NCBI GenBank assembly: GCA_030271625.1
Contig: JARXKN010000001.1
Location: 62,001-126,000 of the forward strand
Source of the DNA: Patescibacteria group bacterium
Lineage (GTDB): Bacteria; Patescibacteriota; Saccharimonadia; Saccharimonadales; UBA4665
Length of the DNA stretch: 64,000 nucleotides
Direction of reading: 5' to 3'
In this document: piece after piece, positions 49,066-62,046 of the stretch
Layout of the letters: each line of letters opens with the position of its first letter
How positions within the stretch are numbered: the first letter of the stretch is position 1
The notes under the pieces: generated by a model
Databases searched by the model: none
What the model was told of the DNA's origin: nothing
What the model saw: only the letters and a program-made list of their open reading frames with translations
Made by a program: the position numbers and the translations under genes

Positions 49066-51981
49066 GTGACGATGCGCTACTATTTCTCACGTTTAAACCG
49101 CTTCTGCCTTGGCCTGCTGTTACTATTACTCCTCATCGCAGGTAGTTTACGGGCCGCCGCCTTAGTGCCCGCACCAGTTGCGGGTCCAGCCTGGGATAAT
49201 CCGACTACCATGAGCCTGCGTAGCCTGGGAACTAGTGCGTCAACCGGCGAGGCGCATTTGGCTTTCGAAGACAACCTGGACTGCATTAAGTCCACCTATC
49301 GTTTAAACGGTAGCGACACTAAGCAAGCCGGTTGTTACGAACCGACTGCTTTTGGCGGCCTGGATGTCGAACATAACCTGGTTAGCTTTAACGATAACGA
49401 AGAGACCGCCGTTCCATTACTTGGTTATGGCCCGCACGATGTACTGCTAGCTTGGCCAGGAACCGCTTCAGCGCTGTCAATTACCCCCACCCCAACTGAC
49501 GGCGTCTACCTCAGTATTTATAAGGATATCCTGACGGCGACTACCGACCAGCGTAATCTGTTAGGGCAGGTGACCGCTAAACAAGTTAATCGGGCCGCCG
49601 ATGTTGCTTTACTCGATCCGGCCGGCCGAAAATTAATAGTCAATTTTAATAGCCTGGCTTTTTCGGATGGCGGTTCCTGGTTAGTGGCTGAGAGTTTAAG
49701 CGGCTTATTTTATAGAATTAATGTGGCTTCACTGACGGCCAAACCGTTTGCGCCTTCATACACCAACTTTGGAGCCGGCTATAACGAGTCACAAGTTGCT
49801 GTTAGTCCCGACGGTGATTACGTGGCGATTGCTAACACCGCTGCTCGTTCACTACGAGTCTATAATCTGGCGAATTGCCTATCAACGTCCTCAGATACTA
49901 CTATTTGTCCGTCGCACGATTACTGGCCGTTTATCGCTAGTAAAGCTAGCAGCTTCACCCATCCACTTCATCTGCGCTTTTTAAATGACGGGCTACTAGC
50001 CCTTACCGACATCTCAGCGACAAGTCAAACAACCTATGAACTGGCGCCGGTGAATAATAGTTTCGCCTTAATGGATTATCTTGCTTTAGGTGATTCCTAC
50101 ACTGCCGGGGAAGGGGCTTTTGCTTATAAGCAAGGTACTGATACGCCGACTAATCAGTGTCATAATTCGCTAAAGTCATATCCCTCACTGCTGACAACAG
50201 CTCTCTTTACGCAAGCCGGTGGTAAATCAATTGCTTGTTCGGGCGCTAGGATGGCTGATATAACTGGCGGGCCCGATTACAATGGCCAAGCCGACGACGG
50301 CCTAGCCTACGGCCAACGCACAAAAGATCAAATTACGCAGTTGCTTACCGACCTGACGCCGGGTACTTTGCCGCAGTCGGCGTTTGCCGGTCATTATCAG
50401 CCGGCAGCTATGACCGTTTCGGTAGGCGGTAACGACATTGGCTTCGGATCAATTCTCAAACTTTGTGTGGCGCCCCACGTAAATCCGCACGTTACCAACG
50501 CCAATGCCTGTTACAGCACTTACGAAGACCGGCTCGAGTTGGCCAATAGTATCGACGCCCAAGTGCCGCGCCTTGTTAAGATGCTCAAACAGCTAAAGCA
50601 AACCACGCCCGGCACTGTCATCTATCTCGTTGGCTATCCGCTCATCGCAGTTGATACCGGCAGTTGTGCGATTAACGTCCATCTCAACACTACCGAACTC
50701 GCCCTATCGATAGAGGTTATAAAAGAGTTAAATCATGCCTTAGCGCGGGCGGCGATTGCGACGGGCAGTAATTATGTGGATGTCGAAATGGCGCTGGCCG
50801 GGCATCGACTATGCGAAACCGATAGCAAGCTAGTAGCCGTTAATGGCGTAACGGCCGGCAATGACGGGGGATTTGCGGCTTCAATTTTTGGCCACTCCGT
50901 AACCGTCGATTTTCTTGGCAAAGAAAGTTATCACCCGACAGCTTATGGGCAGCAATTAATCGAAGAAGCCATTCTCCGACAAACGCATAATCTCCACGAC
51001 AAGCTGGCAGCACCGCTTGCGTCGGCTCCTGCCAGCACAGCAACTGCAAAAATATTAGACGCCCCTAAGTCCGGCAGACCAACGATACGTAAAGTTCCGA
51101 CTGTAATTACCAAGCATCAGTCTGCTAAACGTGGCGCCAGCCTACCCATTACCGTCAGCGGCCGCGCCCACGGACTGCGCGCCAATACTACCTACACCGT
51201 CAAGCTGAAGCAGGGTAGTGCCGTGACTAGTATTGGCACGATTTTGAGTGCGACCGACAGCGCCATCGCTGGCTCCGTAAATCTACCGTCAACAACTGTT
51301 CCCGGTACTTACGAACTTGATCTAGACGGCACCGATCAATTAGGCAGCCCAGTATCAATGATTGACGTGATTACAATTATCGACAGTGATACCGACTATG
51401 ACGGCGACACTACCCCCGATACGGTCGATGGCTGCCCAACTATAAAAAATAGCGGCATCGATAGTGATCACGATGGTATCGATGATGCCTGTGATGGCAT
51501 TATCGACGACAGCCCGCCCGACACTAGTTTATTGCCAGCAGTCGTTGTGGCGCCGGCACCAGCGGCCGGCGGGTCTACCGGTCTTGGGAATGCACCGCTC
51601 GTAGCCGCTACTGACGTCCTAGCCACCCTACAGCCAGCAACAGCTTCAGCGCCGTCGACCAGCCTGCAGGCCGGTATTAAGACTAAGCTACTATCAGTAT
51701 CATCTTCACCAGCACCCAAACCACTGCCGCTGCAGACCAGCAGCCCGGCCGGGGTTCTGGGCGCTACCGTTACAGCTAGGCCGCAATCACTGCAACCAGT
51801 AGCAGCCCGACTACGCCCCGCCGCAGCTACACCGAGGCCAGTGTTACCACGTTTACCCTGGTTCTGGCTGGTAGTAGCCTACGCGCTGGCTTTAGTTATT
51901 TTGACGCTAACAAAAAGAGCCCGGCATAGCCTGGGCTCTTCATGGCGGAGAAAGAGGGATTCGAACCCTCGGTACCCGTAA
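49066..51981 (+). CDS. Large secreted SGNH/GDSL hydrolase with C-terminal anchor
   Basis: This 971-residue surface protein starts with a signal sequence (basic, then LGLLLLLLLIAGSLRAAA). Residues ~40-335 look like a beta-propeller-type region (LVNFNSLAFSDGGSWLVAES, VAVSPDGDYVAIAN). An SGNH esterase domain follows: GDSYTAGEG near residue 344, SVGGNDIGFG and the catalytic YHPTAYGQ. After an Ig-like stretch comes a calcium-binding type-3-repeat-like segment (DSDTDYDGDTTPDTVDGCP), a Pro/Ala linker and a final membrane helix (FWLVVAYALALVILTL). The GTG start fits a GGGGAG site nine bases upstream. The last ~13 codons run antisense into tRNA-Ser. Confidence 0.88.
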   Translation: MTMRYYFSRLNRFCLGLLLLLLLIAGSLRAAALVPAPVAGPAWDNPTTMSLRSLGTSASTGEAHLAFEDNLDCIKSTYRLNGSDTKQAGCYEPTAFGGLDVEHNLVSFNDNEETAVPLLGYGPHDVLLAWPGTASALSITPTPTDGVYLSIYKDILTATTDQRNLLGQVTAKQVNRAADVALLDPAGRKLIVNFNSLAFSDGGSWLVAESLSGLFYRINVASLTAKPFAPSYTNFGAGYNESQVAVSPDGDYVAIANTAARSLRVYNLANCLSTSSDTTICPSHDYWPFIASKASSFTHPLHLRFLNDGLLALTDISATSQTTYELAPVNNSFALMDYLALGDSYTAGEGAFAYKQGTDTPTNQCHNSLKSYPSLLTTALFTQAGGKSIACSGARMADITGGPDYNGQADDGLAYGQRTKDQITQLLTDLTPGTLPQSAFAGHYQPAAMTVSVGGNDIGFGSILKLCVAPHVNPHVTNANACYSTYEDRLELANSIDAQVPRLVKMLKQLKQTTPGTVIYLVGYPLIAVDTGSCAINVHLNTTELALSIEVIKELNHALARAAIATGSNYVDVEMALAGHRLCETDSKLVAVNGVTAGNDGGFAASIFGHSVTVDFLGKESYHPTAYGQQLIEEAILRQTHNLHDKLAAPLASAPASTATAKILDAPKSGRPTIRKVPTVITKHQSAKRGASLPITVSGRAHGLRANTTYTVKLKQGSAVTSIGTILSATDSAIAGSVNLPSTTVPGTYELDLDGTDQLGSPVSMIDVITIIDSDTDYDGDTTPDTVDGCPTIKNSGIDSDHDGIDDACDGIIDDSPPDTSLLPAVVVAPAPAAGGSTGLGNAPLVAATDVLATLQPATASAPSTSLQAGIKTKLLSVSSSPAPKPLPLQTSSPAGVLGATVTARPQSLQPVAARLRPAAATPRPVLPRLPWFWLVVAYALALVILTLTKRARHSLGSSWRRKRDSNPRYP
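51912..51940 (-). terminator. Terminator for tRNA-Ser(CGA)
   Basis: Read leftward, AAGAGCCC and GGGCTCTT pair and are followed by five T residues. It lies directly after the tRNA-Ser 3' end and inside the coding sequence of the rightward SGNH gene. Confidence 0.85.
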
Positions 51982-52032
51982 GGGCACACTGCTTTTCGAG
52001 AGCAGCACCTTCAACCACTCGGTCATCTCTCC
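51943..52032 (-). tRNA. tRNA-Ser(CGA)
   Basis: This 90-base tRNA has an acceptor stem GGAGAGA/TCTCTCC-type pairing, a long variable arm typical of serine tRNAs, the T-loop GTTCGAATC and an encoded CCA. The anticodon loop CTCGAAA gives CGA, reading UCG codons. Confidence 0.95.
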
Positions 52033-53582: not shown

Positions 53583-53771
53583 ATGGCAATTAGCGATCGA
53601 GGCTTTGCATCTATGGACGAAAACAAGAAGCGCGAAATTCAATCAATGGGTGGCAAGGCAAGTGGCGGGAACACTAAGTCTACATCCACGAACCGCAGTA
53701 CTACGACTGGTCGGGGCAGTAACCTAACCCCGGCTGACCGCAGTAAGGGTGGCAAGAACAGCCACCGCTAA
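53583..53771 (+). CDS. KGG-repeat stress-type small protein
   Basis: The 62-residue basic hydrophilic protein carries the KGG motif (RGFASMDENKKREIQSMGGKASGG and a final RSKGGKNSHR) found in general-stress proteins of the YciG/Con-10 type. Members are intrinsically disordered and linked to desiccation or osmotic stress, with no known enzymatic role. An AAGGAGG site lies just upstream, and a strong terminator follows. Confidence 0.88.
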   Translation: MAISDRGFASMDENKKREIQSMGGKASGGNTKSTSTNRSTTTGRGSNLTPADRSKGGKNSHR

Positions 53772-53791: not shown

Positions 53792-53819
53792 AAAAAGAAC
53801 CCCTACGGGGGTTCTTTTT
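53792..53819. terminator. Bidirectional terminator
   Basis: AAAAAGAACCCC and GGGGTTCTTTTT pair around a short TACG loop, lying between the KGG gene and the convergent ferric-reductase-like gene. It can end both transcripts. Confidence 0.92.
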
Positions 53820-55182
53820 AATTATGTAACGCAAAGCGTTCGTAATGCAGCTGATTGGTGGGCAGAGCAGTTGCTTGCAAGTCGGTAATGACGCTGTCCA
53901 TCATGACTTGCGGTCCGCAAACGTAGACATCGCGCTCAGCAAAATCGGGGACTAGTCTTTTAATTCGTGCTCCGTCGATGTAGCCTGTTTCGCCCTTAAA
54001 GCCTTGGGCGGCGTTACTGAAGACCGGTACAAGCTTTAGGCCTTGCTTAGTGAGTTGCGCTAACTCATCTTTAAAAATCACGTCCGCTAGCGTTCGGTTA
54101 CCATAAACTAAGACGCAGTCTTGCTGGGCGGCTAAGGCAGCGACTAGTAATGTTCGAAGTGGCGTGATACCAACCCCGCCAGCGATAAATAAACGCTTTT
54201 TAGTTTGAGCGACTTCATCGGTAAAACGTCCGTACGGCCCAGACACCAGAACTTTGGTACCTGGTTTTACATGCGGCAGGATACTCGTGTAATCACCTAA
54301 GCTGCGGACCGTAAGCCGGAACTGATCGTTAATTGGCACGGCCGACATAGAGAAGGGGTGTTCTTGAAAAATATAGCGCTTGCTTAAGAACCGCACTAAA
54401 ACGTACTGACCTGGTCTGGCTGGCCATTTGGCCAAATCTTTGCCACCGATATATAACGAATTTGCGGAAGCTGTTTCTGGTTCGACTCGGGCCACCTTAA
54501 ATTGAAAACGCAGCAAGTTAATAACCGGTAGGCTAAAGCGCCAGAACAAAACGTTTATCGCTACAAAAACATAGACCGCTAACCAGTACAGCCGGGCTAG
54601 CGGGTGCCCCTGGAAGCTACCACCGACGGCTAACTGGTGTGAAAAGGCGAGCACGATAGCGGCATAGACCAGCAAGTGGACGTAGTACCAAGTTTCGAAC
54701 TTTAATTTCTTACGCACAATATAGATAGAGCAGGCCACCACCGCTATAAATAGCACCTCAGCAATGGCCGCTTTCCAGACATCGTTGTAATGGAATAAAA
54801 CTTGGACGTACTGCGTGAAGTAGTTAACGTGTGCCGTCAGACTATAGCCCAGCACAACCAGCGGGGCATGAACGAGAATAAAGCCAATTGCCATGTAGCC
54901 GTTGTAGCGATGGTAGCTGGCCAAATGATCGAGGCCAAATGGTCGTTCAATCCAGGCAACGCGTCCCATTAATAAGAATTGGGTCAGCGCGAAGGTGGCC
55001 GCAAACAAACCAAATAGTCGGCCGAAGGCAAGGACGATATTGCCCGCATTTCCGGAAGACAGTAAGTCGGCCGAAGTGGTTGCCCAAACGGTTAGGACGA
55101 AGGCCAGGTTAAGATACCAGGCTCCTACAACCGCCGCTTGGGCTTTAGTGATCTTACCTTGAAAGAGTTTTGTAACGACCAT
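53818..55182 (-). CDS. Ferric-reductase-like transmembrane flavoprotein
   Basis: The 454-residue protein has six or so membrane helices (residues ~15-225) with histidines in helices (SYHRYNGYMAIGFILVH, and WYYVHLLVYAAIVLAFSHQL) suited to bind two haems. A cytoplasmic FAD domain follows (RPGQYVLVRFL, FQEHPFSMSAVP) and then an NAD(P)H domain (FIAGGVGITPLRTLL, VYVCGPQVMMD). This is the ferric reductase/NADPH oxidase layout, which moves electrons from cytoplasmic NAD(P)H across the membrane. It lies 8 bases after the cupredoxin gene, a plausible external electron partner. Confidence 0.92.
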   Translation of the reverse strand: MVVTKLFQGKITKAQAAVVGAWYLNLAFVLTVWATTSADLLSSGNAGNIVLAFGRLFGLFAATFALTQFLLMGRVAWIERPFGLDHLASYHRYNGYMAIGFILVHAPLVVLGYSLTAHVNYFTQYVQVLFHYNDVWKAAIAEVLFIAVVACSIYIVRKKLKFETWYYVHLLVYAAIVLAFSHQLAVGGSFQGHPLARLYWLAVYVFVAINVLFWRFSLPVINLLRFQFKVARVEPETASANSLYIGGKDLAKWPARPGQYVLVRFLSKRYIFQEHPFSMSAVPINDQFRLTVRSLGDYTSILPHVKPGTKVLVSGPYGRFTDEVAQTKKRLFIAGGVGITPLRTLLVAALAAQQDCVLVYGNRTLADVIFKDELAQLTKQGLKLVPVFSNAAQGFKGETGYIDGARIKRLVPDFAERDVYVCGPQVMMDSVITDLQATALPTNQLHYERFALHN

Positions 55183-55190
55183 AAGTACGA

Positions 55191-55601
55191 TTATTCGACA
55201 ACGACTGAGCCGTGCATGTAAGGGTGTGGGCTACAGTGGTATTTGTAGGTACCGGATTTAGTAAAGGTGTAGGTGTAGGCTTCTCCCTTACCAATCAGCT
55301 TACCGTCGGGCATCATGTTGTCGTCGGAGACAATATTGTGTTTAACACTGTCGGTGTTAGTCCAGGTTACCGTCGTACCAACTTTAACTTTTATGTCGGC
55401 CGGGCCAAACATGTAGTTGGCAATTGTTACTTTATCGGCAGCGACTGCATTAGAAGTGCTAGCTGAAGTTGAGCTACTGTCGGTGTTGCCGCTCATAGCG
55501 GTATCGGTAGTATTCTTTTTACCGGACGAAGCGGCCACGATAGCCACTAAGGCTATAACTACGACGACGGTTCCAATGATAATTGCAGGCGTTTTTTTCA
55601 T
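55191..55601 (-). CDS. Membrane-anchored cupredoxin (plastocyanin-like)
   Basis: The 136-residue protein has an N-terminal signal anchor (KTPAIIIGTVVVVIALVAIVA), a Ser/Thr linker and a cupredoxin domain: VTIANYMFGPADIKVKVGTTVTWTN, the copper-ligand His in SVKHNIVSDD, and the C-terminal HCSPHPYMHG carrying Cys, His and Met ligands. It should bind a type 1 copper outside the membrane and transfer electrons. It is co-transcribed with the ferric-reductase-like gene 8 bases downstream. Confidence 0.93.
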   Translation of the reverse strand: MKKTPAIIIGTVVVVIALVAIVAASSGKKNTTDTAMSGNTDSSSTSASTSNAVAADKVTIANYMFGPADIKVKVGTTVTWTNTDSVKHNIVSDDNMMPDGKLIGKGEAYTYTFTKSGTYKYHCSPHPYMHGSVVVE

Positions 55602-55621
55602 ATATACATCCTTCTTTAAAA

Positions 55622-55655
55622 AATAAGCAGGTCAACCTAGGCCGACCTGCTTATT
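55622..55655 (-). terminator. Terminator after the helical-repeat gene
   Basis: A perfect 12-bp stem (AATAAGCAGGTC / GACCTGCTTATT) with a 10-base loop is followed, reading leftward, by a T-rich stretch. It lies between the helical-repeat gene and the cupredoxin gene, so it would attenuate or separate the two. Confidence 0.85.
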
Positions 55656-55682
55656 GTAAACCTATTCAGGCTTTGTTGTTGA

Positions 55683-56378
55683 CTAGTTCTGGAACTTGTC
55701 AGGGAACTGCTTAACAATACCGCCAGCTAAGGTGCTGAAGATACCGTTAAGGTGCTGTGCGGCTTGGTCGCGGGCAGCGGTTTCGCCAGCAAAGTCACCC
55801 TTTACGTGCAAGTCGATCATCTGGGCAGTCTGAGTAACGTGGTCACTGAGGACTGAGTACAGTGTGTCTTCTGGCAAGTTTGGGTTAGCTTTGGCTAGGT
55901 AGGCTGATAGTGGGTGCGTGTACTGGGTGTCGATGGTGCTTAAAGCAGCTTTCTTACCAGCGTCATCGCCCTTGCTTGAAGCAACGGCGTAGTTTACGAA
56001 TTGGTCAAGGTGAAGCTTCCAAACGGTGTTGAAAGTAGTTTCAGCGTCTTTACCATAGATACTACCAACAGCAGCACCAATATCAGTACCGTTCTTGTAT
56101 AGGTCTTTGCCAACTTCTGCAGCGTTTTTGTCGCCATCGAGGGCGGCGTCAACAGCGTGCATAGTTAGGTCCTGGTGCTGTACACCCAAAGATACTAGGT
56201 TGGCACGAATGTCGGCAGCCTTAGTACCACTGGTTGGAGCAGTAGCAGAATTCTTGGTTGTTGATGATGTGTCTTTATTGTCTGAAGCCTTGGAGACACC
56301 AAAGCCGACAGCCAAACCTACGACTAGTAGGACGGCACTGAGGGCTACGTTTGCAGCACCTTTGTTGGAATTACTCAT
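55683..56378 (-). CDS. Secreted helical duplicated-repeat protein, 231 aa
   Basis: After a signal anchor (NVALSAVLLVVGLAVGFGVS) and a Ser/Thr-rich linker, the ~170-residue domain contains two related helical units with spaced His/Asp residues (HQDLTMHAVDAALDGDKNAA, and HVTQTAQMIDLHVKGDFAGE) and ends GGIVKQFPDKF. The pattern of H.xLT...D.HL repeats with a final GI.KQFP..F matches a family I recall in Bacillus and clostridia that has no established function. The clustered His and acidic residues could bind metal, which is inference. AGGAGA precedes the start. Confidence 0.75.
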   Translation of the reverse strand: MSNSNKGAANVALSAVLLVVGLAVGFGVSKASDNKDTSSTTKNSATAPTSGTKAADIRANLVSLGVQHQDLTMHAVDAALDGDKNAAEVGKDLYKNGTDIGAAVGSIYGKDAETTFNTVWKLHLDQFVNYAVASSKGDDAGKKAALSTIDTQYTHPLSAYLAKANPNLPEDTLYSVLSDHVTQTAQMIDLHVKGDFAGETAARDQAAQHLNGIFSTLAGGIVKQFPDKFQN

Positions 56379-56394
56379 TTAATTCTCCTGATTA

Positions 56395-56430
56395 ATTGTT
56401 AACAAGCTTAATTATTATTTGTTTAACAAT
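56395..56430. promoter_or_regulatory. Paired MarR-type operators and promoter
   Basis: TTGTTAACAA (56396-56405) is a perfect 10-base palindrome, and TTGTTTAACAA (56419-56429) is a near copy. They lie in the gap between the MarR gene and the helical-repeat gene. Reading leftward, a TTGACT -35 and an AATAAT -10 with a 17-base spacer enclose one site, and the other lies at the predicted start of transcription. This is a classic repressor layout. Confidence 0.75.
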
Positions 56431-56446
56431 ATAAGTCAATGGGTTT

Positions 56447-56893
56447 TTATACAGTGACTTTTAAATCGTCTGTGCTATTGTTAATAATTGCTTCTAAAAC
56501 AGCTTCAAAGCCAGCTAAATCAGCCGGTGTAGTACCCGCCAAAATTCCGCTCAAAGATTTCTCTAAAGCTGACTCAACTTTTTTCATAAAAACTTTACCA
56601 GTACTCGTAAGCATTAGTAACTTCACTCTCTTGTCAGTGTGGTGGGGAAGCAGTTCAATTAAATCTTTAGCAATTAAATCTTGGACCAAGGTTGTCACTA
56701 ATGGCGCCTTAACATTCATGGTATTAGCAACTTCTACGAGCCGGACACCGTCTTTAGTTTCACGGATAATACCCATAAGAACCCAGCTTGTAGGGTTAAT
56801 GTCGTAATTGCTTAAACAACCCGTTACGTTGGAACGCAACAGTCGGTAAGCCTTCATAAATAGGGCACCGCTAAGGTAAGTAGGTATATTCAT
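56447..56893 (-). CDS. MarR-family transcriptional regulator
   Basis: The 148-residue winged-helix regulator has the MarR pattern: an N-terminal helical dimer segment, SNYDINPTSWVLMGIIRE, the recognition helix NTMNVKAPLVTTLVQDLIAKDLI, the wing HTDKRVKLLMLTSTGKVF, and a C-terminal dimerisation helix. MarR proteins usually repress their own or neighbouring genes and respond to small ligands or oxidants. It is upstream of, and likely controls, the helical-repeat, cupredoxin and flavocytochrome genes through the operators at 56395-56430. Confidence 0.92.
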   Translation of the reverse strand: MNIPTYLSGALFMKAYRLLRSNVTGCLSNYDINPTSWVLMGIIRETKDGVRLVEVANTMNVKAPLVTTLVQDLIAKDLIELLPHHTDKRVKLLMLTSTGKVFMKKVESALEKSLSGILAGTTPADLAGFEAVLEAIINNSTDDLKVTV

Positions 56894-56962: not shown

Positions 56963-57076
56963 TTATTGTAAATCATCCATGAACGTATTAGAATTTTGAT
57001 TTGAGTCGCGGGGCTTATTGTTTTTCTGCTGTTCAGCTAATCGGTGCAGCCGTTTAAAATATTCTTCTAAGTTCAT
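56963..57076 (-). CDS. Possible small protein, 37 aa
   Basis: The frame encodes 37 residues, starting MNLEEYFKRLHRLAEQQ and ending TFMDDLQ, hydrophilic and with a helical N-terminal half. An AGGAAGG ribosome-binding sequence lies just upstream of the ATG. No family is recognised; support is the ribosome-binding site and the otherwise empty gap. Confidence 0.4.
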   Translation of the reverse strand: MNLEEYFKRLHRLAEQQKNNKPRDSNQNSNTFMDDLQ

Positions 57077-61380: not shown

Positions 61381-62046
61381 TCAGGCTTGGGCAAACACGA
61401 TGGCTGATACTTGGGTGGCGCCGGCTCGCAGTAGGGTGTCGGCGGCAGCACGCAAGCTGGCGCCGGTTGTTGTCACGTCATCCACTAGCAGTACTGAGGC
61501 GCCAGCTAAAGAGAACCGTCGCTTTACTCTATAGGCGCGCTGCAGCTGCTCGAGCCGTTGTTGGCGACTAGCGCCGCGCTGGTGCTGCTGGCCGACCCGA
61601 GCCAGACAGGGCAGGCACGATAGACCTGTTAGCTTGGAATAGTTTCGGGCCAGCAACGCCGCCTGATCGTAGCCGCGCTGCCTTACCCGGGACGTGGCCG
61701 TCGGTAGCGGTACTACGATGGTAGTAGCTGGCGGCTGGTATAGTGCCGCAAAGGCTTGCGCCATAACTCGGGCCGCTTGTTGGGCGCCCGTAAATTTAAG
61801 TCGCCAGACTAATTCTTTAGCCAGACCACTGTAGGGCGCGACTCGCCAGACCGCCTTCAGCTGAGATTGCTTTTTGCAATCAGGGCAGGTCTGGTAATTT
61901 GTCGTGGCCTTCTGGCAACTGAAGCACGTAGAAGGGAGTACCGTTATCGTCTTTTGGCAAGCGCTGCATAACAGCGAGCCCTCCTGCGCACAGACCAGAC
62001 AGACGTGCGGCGCCAACCACCCAATAAAGGTATCTAGAAGGCTCAT
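61381..62046 (-). CDS. comF: ComF-family phosphoribosyltransferase-like protein
   Basis: ComF proteins are needed for natural DNA uptake, probably coupling ATP use to entry of single strands, and their fold is that of phosphoribosyltransferases. The 221-residue protein has an intact N-terminal four-cysteine zinc finger (CLVCAQEGSLLCSAC, then CFSCQKATTNYQTCPDC) and the PRPP-binding motif VLLVDDVTTTGASLRAAA near its end. It ends in TGA, one of two TGA stops seen in the window. Confidence 0.93.
   Translation of the reverse strand: MSLLDTFIGWLAPHVCLVCAQEGSLLCSACQKTITVLPSTCFSCQKATTNYQTCPDCKKQSQLKAVWRVAPYSGLAKELVWRLKFTGAQQAARVMAQAFAALYQPPATTIVVPLPTATSRVRQRGYDQAALLARNYSKLTGLSCLPCLARVGQQHQRGASRQQRLEQLQRAYRVKRRFSLAGASVLLVDDVTTTGASLRAAADTLLRAGATQVSAIVFAQA

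Follow-up and report, generated by a model that had tools for sequence, protein, structure and literature searches.

Several described systems lie close to the locus reported here. MsrQ-like flavinylation systems (Meheust et al. 2021, PMC8238504) combine a six-helix membrane protein carrying two haems, recognised by PF01794 and often PF00175, with an NAD(P)H donor and an adjoining gene for an extracytoplasmic carrier. SpNOX and the NADPH oxidase/ferric reductase (NOX/FRE) superfamily (PMC5676040; PDB 8qt6) are marked by their domain order, their bis-His spacing and their flavin adenine dinucleotide (FAD) and NADPH motifs. We examined a 64,000-nt stretch of the Saccharibacterial contig JARXKN010000001.1 (the window; positions 62,001 to 126,000), part of a 1.15 Mb genome of 98.5% completeness (GCA_030271625.1, here G000), in which four minus-strand genes encode a flavocytochrome (Fcyt), a type-1 cupredoxin (Cup), a helical extracytoplasmic protein (Hel) and a MarR regulator (Table 1). 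Fcyt shares all of the above features with both groups; it differs from MsrQ-like systems in that G000 carries a type-1 cupredoxin and Hel at this position, with no adjoining gene for a flavin mononucleotide (FMN)-binding protein or ApbE, and from SpNOX in that it adjoins genes for protein electron carriers. On balance we favour, by a modest degree, a path in which electrons from NAD(P)H would pass through Fcyt to Cup.

Cupredoxins have precedent in the candidate phyla radiation (CPR). The soil Saccharibacterium Ca. Teamsevenus rhizospherense encodes a blue-copper protein alongside Ndh-2 and a bo3 oxidase (Starr et al. 2018, PMC6031116), and denitrifying Patescibacteria encode a 'plastocyanin' and are missing complex III, the reductant of their plastocyanin being noted as unidentified (PMC12931201). 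Both resemble G000 in combining a cupredoxin with a bo3 quinol oxidase in a CPR bacterium; the G000 genome has no NirK-type domain. Neither a flavocytochrome reductase for a cupredoxin nor a Hel protein is described in the passages of these two papers that were consulted. The original prediction knew of no described system with this combination of genes; within the open PMC literature, the combination has partial precedents in the sister MsrQ-like systems and in the blue-copper protein of T. rhizospherense.

Flavocytochrome, cupredoxin and the exchange of partners

Fcyt matches Ferric_reduct (E 5e-14), FAD_binding_8 (E 2e-9) and NAD_binding_1 (E 1e-20), in line with the PF01794 protein, often with a PF00175 domain, of MsrQ-like systems. 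Two bis-His pairs within transmembrane helices (His91-x13-His105 and His169-x12-His182) are kept in all close orthologues, which are 78, 61 and 55% identical within the genus and 49% identical in G196, and bear out the two haems originally predicted. The FAD motif H[PSA]F[TS][LIMV] is present as HPFSM at residue 275 and the NAD(P)H motif as GVGITP at 336; the protein is retained by all of the prokaryotic NOX/FRE sequence filters of Hajjar et al. 2017 (PMC5676040), and the SpNOX-type entry 8qt6 is among its best PDB matches (2.5e-13). By all sequence tests, Fcyt is a member of the NOX/FRE superfamily.

Cup matches PF00127 (Copper-bind; E 4e-17, 62.9 bits) and is the only protein in the G000 genome to do so. 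It has a plastocyanin-family fold and its closest solved structure is amicyanin; it shares with amicyanin- and plastocyanin-type cupredoxins a complete H-C-H-M copper site and a CxPHPxM loop, confirming its assignment as a type 1 copper protein. It differs from them in falling below the amicyanin TIGR02657 cut-off (73.3 vs 110.2 bits), in its gene context and in its membrane anchor, a single N-terminal hydrophobic segment of a kind also found in Hel, in agreement with the predicted anchoring. Fcyt starts 8 bp downstream of Cup, and the same arrangement, with Cup directly upstream on the same strand and the open reading frames (ORFs) spaced by 2-13 bp, recurs in G087, G196 and G213, so that with G000 it spans three families. 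In several Hel loci (L089, L090, L091 and L092), a type-1 cupredoxin is followed by a second cupredoxin-like protein that is Cys-less and His-rich, with a Cupredoxin_1 match in L091.

In a tree of 37 sequences, an eight-member Saccharibacterial clade (G000, G087, G085, G086, G196, G097, G213 and G103) contains every Cup- or Hel-linked flavocytochrome. This clade groups with an Actinobacterial set and with the Saccharibacterial loci L141-L144. The Actinobacterial proteins, the nearest homologues of Fcyt found beyond the phylum (~35% identity), are of the MsrQ-like flavinylation type: each is followed by an FMN-binding protein and an FAD:protein FMN transferase (ApbE), and some also have a VIT iron transporter beside them. 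Gene order likewise places FMN-binding and ApbE-like genes beside Fcyt in L141-L144, where Pfam confirms FMN_bind at all four loci and ApbE at two of them (L142 and L144). A third branch includes a G000 paralogue (L045; G000:C6, ~486 kb), whose ORF and that of an anchored cytochrome b5 overlap; in L149 the flavocytochrome is followed by a Pfam-confirmed Cyt-b5, and in L150 and L155 genes with the b5 motif HPGG stand at the equivalent position. The external partner is therefore exchanged between clades. An FMN-binding partner for Fcyt itself was considered and rejected, with no PF04205 (FMN_bind) match anywhere in the G000 genome; its neighbours are Cup, Hel and MarR rather than an FMN-binding/ApbE cluster, and because these defining genes are absent we do not place Fcyt in the flavinylation systems. 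In our judgement it would function as a transmembrane reductase of the NOX/MsrQ-like kind with a protein acceptor. The simplest reading of the three arrangements is that each flavocytochrome would have the small anchored protein as its external electron acceptor. The electron outlet of these bacteria, which are without a normal respiratory chain, may thus be swappable.

Two further observations concern genes elsewhere in G000. In the second flavocytochrome (G000:C6:485706-486902; L045:5309-6999) the haem ligand at position 169 is Met, and in the related L149, L150 and L155 it is Gln, as if one membrane haem had been lost upon gain of the external b5 haem. A short ferric-reductase-domain protein without the FNR part (G000:C6:216206-217508; L046:4207-5509) overlaps the gene for a secreted SAHVL-motif protein of unknown family, and a pair resembling it adjoins the Hel-Cup locus of G073 (L088).

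The Hel family and a modular gene unit

Searches of Pfam, NCBIfam and the PDB assigned Hel to no known family or structure. AlphaFold2 predicts one N-terminal helix followed by a six-helix mature domain (predicted local distance difference test, pLDDT, 83; predicted template modelling score 0.77), with pLDDT of ~80-96 across most of that domain. The protein is helical as predicted, but the predicted helical repeat is not borne out for it, a tandem copy being found only in a Planococcus homologue. No known fold could be assigned: the best Foldseek matches to two AlphaFold2 models did not fall below E 0.2, and most PDB matches to the sequence profile were de novo bundles of helices or short stretches of helix. 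Amongst aligned homologues, His68 is conserved in 33/35, His180 in 34/36 and His123 in 30/36, and position 209 is His in 21 and Gln in 11 of 35; the model places His68, His180, His123 and His209 on helices 1, 5, 3 and 6 respectively.

Beyond the phylum, Hel has homologues in Bacillota, Nocardioides, Methylocystis and Bradyrhizobium; no phage homologue was found. One Bacillota protein named 'copper amine oxidase' (WP_065524945.1) is homologous to Hel at 34% identity, and the Planococcus homologue, like Cup-linked Hel, adjoins a plastocyanin-family gene but differs in having two tandem Hel domains. Copper amine oxidase was rejected as an identity for Hel, with no Pfam match for either Hel or the Planococcus protein, and the name is unsupported here because no copper amine oxidase domain was found. 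In Bacillota records such as NZ_CP016541.2 and NZ_CP127876.1, Hel homologues are labelled 'copper amine oxidase' or 'glycosyltransferase', with no domain support in the one tested.

Among 393 Saccharimonadia genomes, Hel was present in 24, a figure that rises to 27 with three marginal matches. Its loci adjoin a cupredoxin in 16/24 cases, a MarR gene in 14/24, a thioredoxin-reductase-like gene in 7/24 and a full-length Fcyt in 5/24. A PF00127 protein is encoded in 15/24 genomes with Hel vs 55/369 others (Fisher p 5e-7, a guide value since the genomes compared are related). Co-occurrence of Hel and Cup is thus far above chance, and the genes are also neighbours. Within the genus, G087 retains the entire four-gene unit and its flanking genes, G086 has Hel and Fcyt, G085 has Fcyt alone and G089 has MarR and Hel with a cupredoxin-like protein that lacks the Cys. 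Elsewhere, Hel adjoins Fcyt without Cup in G103, as it does in G086; G097 resembles G085 in having an orthologous Fcyt without an adjoining cupredoxin; and G213 has the Cup-Fcyt pair without Hel. The recurring core is Hel and Cup, often with MarR, and the unit is modular. Synteny across relatives, which the original prediction had offered as its own test, holds, but relatives need not carry all four genes together, as the few Hel loci with Fcyt and the solitary Fcyt of G085 illustrate. A strict operon is not supported, given this variable content and a hairpin in the Hel-Cup gap.

Regulatory elements and flanking genes

All four ORFs lie where they were predicted, and Pfam supports the domains claimed for MarR, cupredoxin and flavocytochrome.

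Table 1. Features of the locus, in window coordinates.
Feature	Position	Strand	Evidence
Fcyt, flavocytochrome, 454 aa; six-helix ferric-reductase-like domain with FAD and NAD(P)H motifs	53818..55182	-	motifs, Pfam, orthologues
Cup, membrane-anchored type-1 cupredoxin, amicyanin-like, 136 aa	55191..55601	-	PF00127; ligands H88, C123, H126, M129
Strong hairpin in the Hel-Cup gap (stem of 15 bp, loop of 4 nt), T-rich stretch after	55622..55655	-	z = -4.4
Hel, anchored extracytoplasmic six-helix protein, unnamed family, 231 aa	55683..56378	-	conserved H68, N96, Y108, H123, H180, H209/Q
Palindrome TTGTTAACAA, possible MarR operator	56396..56405	-	kept in G087; nowhere else in window
Promoter-like TTGACT-17-AATAAT upstream of Hel	56411..56439	-	10/12 consensus bases
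Palindrome TTGTTAAACAA in -35/-10 spacer, possible MarR operator	56419..56429	-	not palindromic in G087
MarR/SlyA-type regulator, 148 aa	56447..56893	-	Pfam; adjoins Hel in 14/24 loci

MarR scores 27.6 bits against PF01047 (gathering cut-off 24.6). An OhrR-type Cys redox switch was rejected, because the protein's one Cys is missing from its orthologues in G089 and G013. Both palindromes lie in the MarR-Hel gap, with no further copies within the window, and MarR may control the Hel promoter through such sites; the promoter call is weak, because 10 promoter-like sites were found vs 4.9 expected. Stem-loops downstream of Hel have z < -3 in 62% of loci vs 12% of control gaps (median z -3.4 vs -0.4), and the hairpin sequences are unrelated between loci. 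A T-rich stretch follows the hairpin in G000 and G086, where it could be a terminator, and is absent in most other loci. The element may alternatively be a partial terminator or stabilise mRNA; since most loci lack the T-rich stretch, it may instead give the Hel transcript a stability of its own. Neither the hairpin nor the palindromes featured in the original prediction.

Amongst the flanking genes, a KGG (stress-induced) repeat protein (53583-53771, plus strand) is convergent to Fcyt and occupies the same place in G087 at 94% identity. A candidate ORF of 37 codons (56963-57076, minus strand), preceded by a purine-rich stretch, lies directly upstream of marR. Further away, a 971-aa ORF (49066-51981, plus strand) ends in RRKRDSNPRYP, its 3' end entering a tRNA-Ser gene (51943-52032), as is typical of an overcalled C-terminus or a true overlap.

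A proposed electron outlet and the competing explanations

The G000 genome encodes an Ndh-2-like reductase and the quinol bo3 oxidase cyoABCDE, so this organism is not purely fermentative, and the usual view of its relatives as fermenters, on which the original prediction drew, does not fit it. No ferrochelatase was found in the genome, and haem for Fcyt must therefore come from outside; an external haem source has been proposed for Ca. T. rhizospherense (PMC6031116). Within such a cell, cytoplasmic NAD(P)H would give electrons to Fcyt, from FAD to the inner and then the outer haem across the membrane, and the outer haem would reduce the anchored Cup encoded immediately upstream. Type-1 copper centres are oxidising relative to the b haems of the Fcyt family, so this last step would be downhill. 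Cup would occupy the point in the chain held by the covalently flavinylated FMN-binding protein in the sister MsrQ-like systems or by anchored cytochrome b5 in the paralogous branch. Hel would be its extracytoplasmic partner, in a pairing wider than the link to Fcyt, and probably binds metal or haem through its conserved histidines, acting either as the next electron acceptor or as a copper donor to Cup. The Fcyt motifs, the complete Cup site and the gene linkage make the transmembrane electron-transfer module originally predicted the best reading of the locus.

Several observations weigh against it. The G000 genome yielded no cupro-enzyme that could act after Cup: laccase, NirK and CuA oxidase were sought without success. 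As the genome shows no Cu-oxidase_3 domain, Cup was rejected as an electron source for NirK or multicopper oxidases; it was likewise rejected as donor to a CuA oxidase, since CyoA has no C-x3-C-x3-H motif, matches quinol oxidases best, and is therefore not fed by Cup via CuA. Cup cannot be the sole acceptor, because G085 and G097 have Fcyt without an adjoining Cup and G086 and G103 have Hel without Cup; it must also have another role or source, because most Cup-Hel loci are without Fcyt. Finally, Hel and Cup may belong to separate transcripts, given the hairpin that lies between them.

Fcyt could instead be an assimilatory reductase of external Cu(II) or Fe(III), with Cup and Hel as copper chaperone and store. 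Ferric and cupric reductases belong to the same protein family, the VIT transporters beside the Actinobacterial relatives were read as iron assimilation by Meheust et al. (PMC8238504), His-rich Cys-less cupredoxins adjoin Hel in several loci and a heavy-metal-type ATPase lies near the Hel locus of G013. We nevertheless consider this unlikely: no Cu or Fe transporter lies near the genes in the stretches read from G000, G087, G196 and G213, the G000 genome has no HMA metal-binding domain, and a full type-1 site is typical of electron carriers rather than chaperones. That Fcyt might produce extracellular superoxide as SpNOX does, with Cup and Hel protecting against it or using it, would accord with the NOX/FRE filters and the 8qt6 match, but the same filters retain ferric reductases and FMN-linked MsrQ-like proteins, and the tight coupling of Fcyt to genes for one-electron carriers favours a protein acceptor, so we regard a bacterial NOX as improbable. 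Equally hard to credit is a copper or oxidative-stress unit of Hel, Cup and MarR in which Fcyt is a mere passenger gene: Hel and Cup do occur without Fcyt in most loci and in Bacillota, and thioredoxin-reductase-like genes flank Hel as noted above, but the close Cup-Fcyt spacing is kept in three families, once without Hel, and Hel adjoins Fcyt even where Cup is missing.

Hel represents an unnamed and structurally unsolved family in Saccharibacteria, Bacillota, Actinomycetota and Alphaproteobacteria that is misnamed in databases. Standing 8 bp from the sole G000 cupredoxin, Fcyt is a concrete candidate for the plastocyanin or cupredoxin reductase of Patescibacteria without complex III. More speculatively, and rather against the odds, host-dependent CPR bacteria may have in this locus a transmembrane NAD(P)H:cupredoxin oxidoreductase of a new class, passing electrons on to Hel as a new extracytoplasmic metal- or haem-binding helical family through an outlet needing neither quinone nor complex III, with homologous flavocytochromes serving three external partners. 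If an FMN protein, a cupredoxin and a cytochrome b5 do replace one another in this way, NOX-type membrane proteins would be a common platform to which different external carriers can be coupled.

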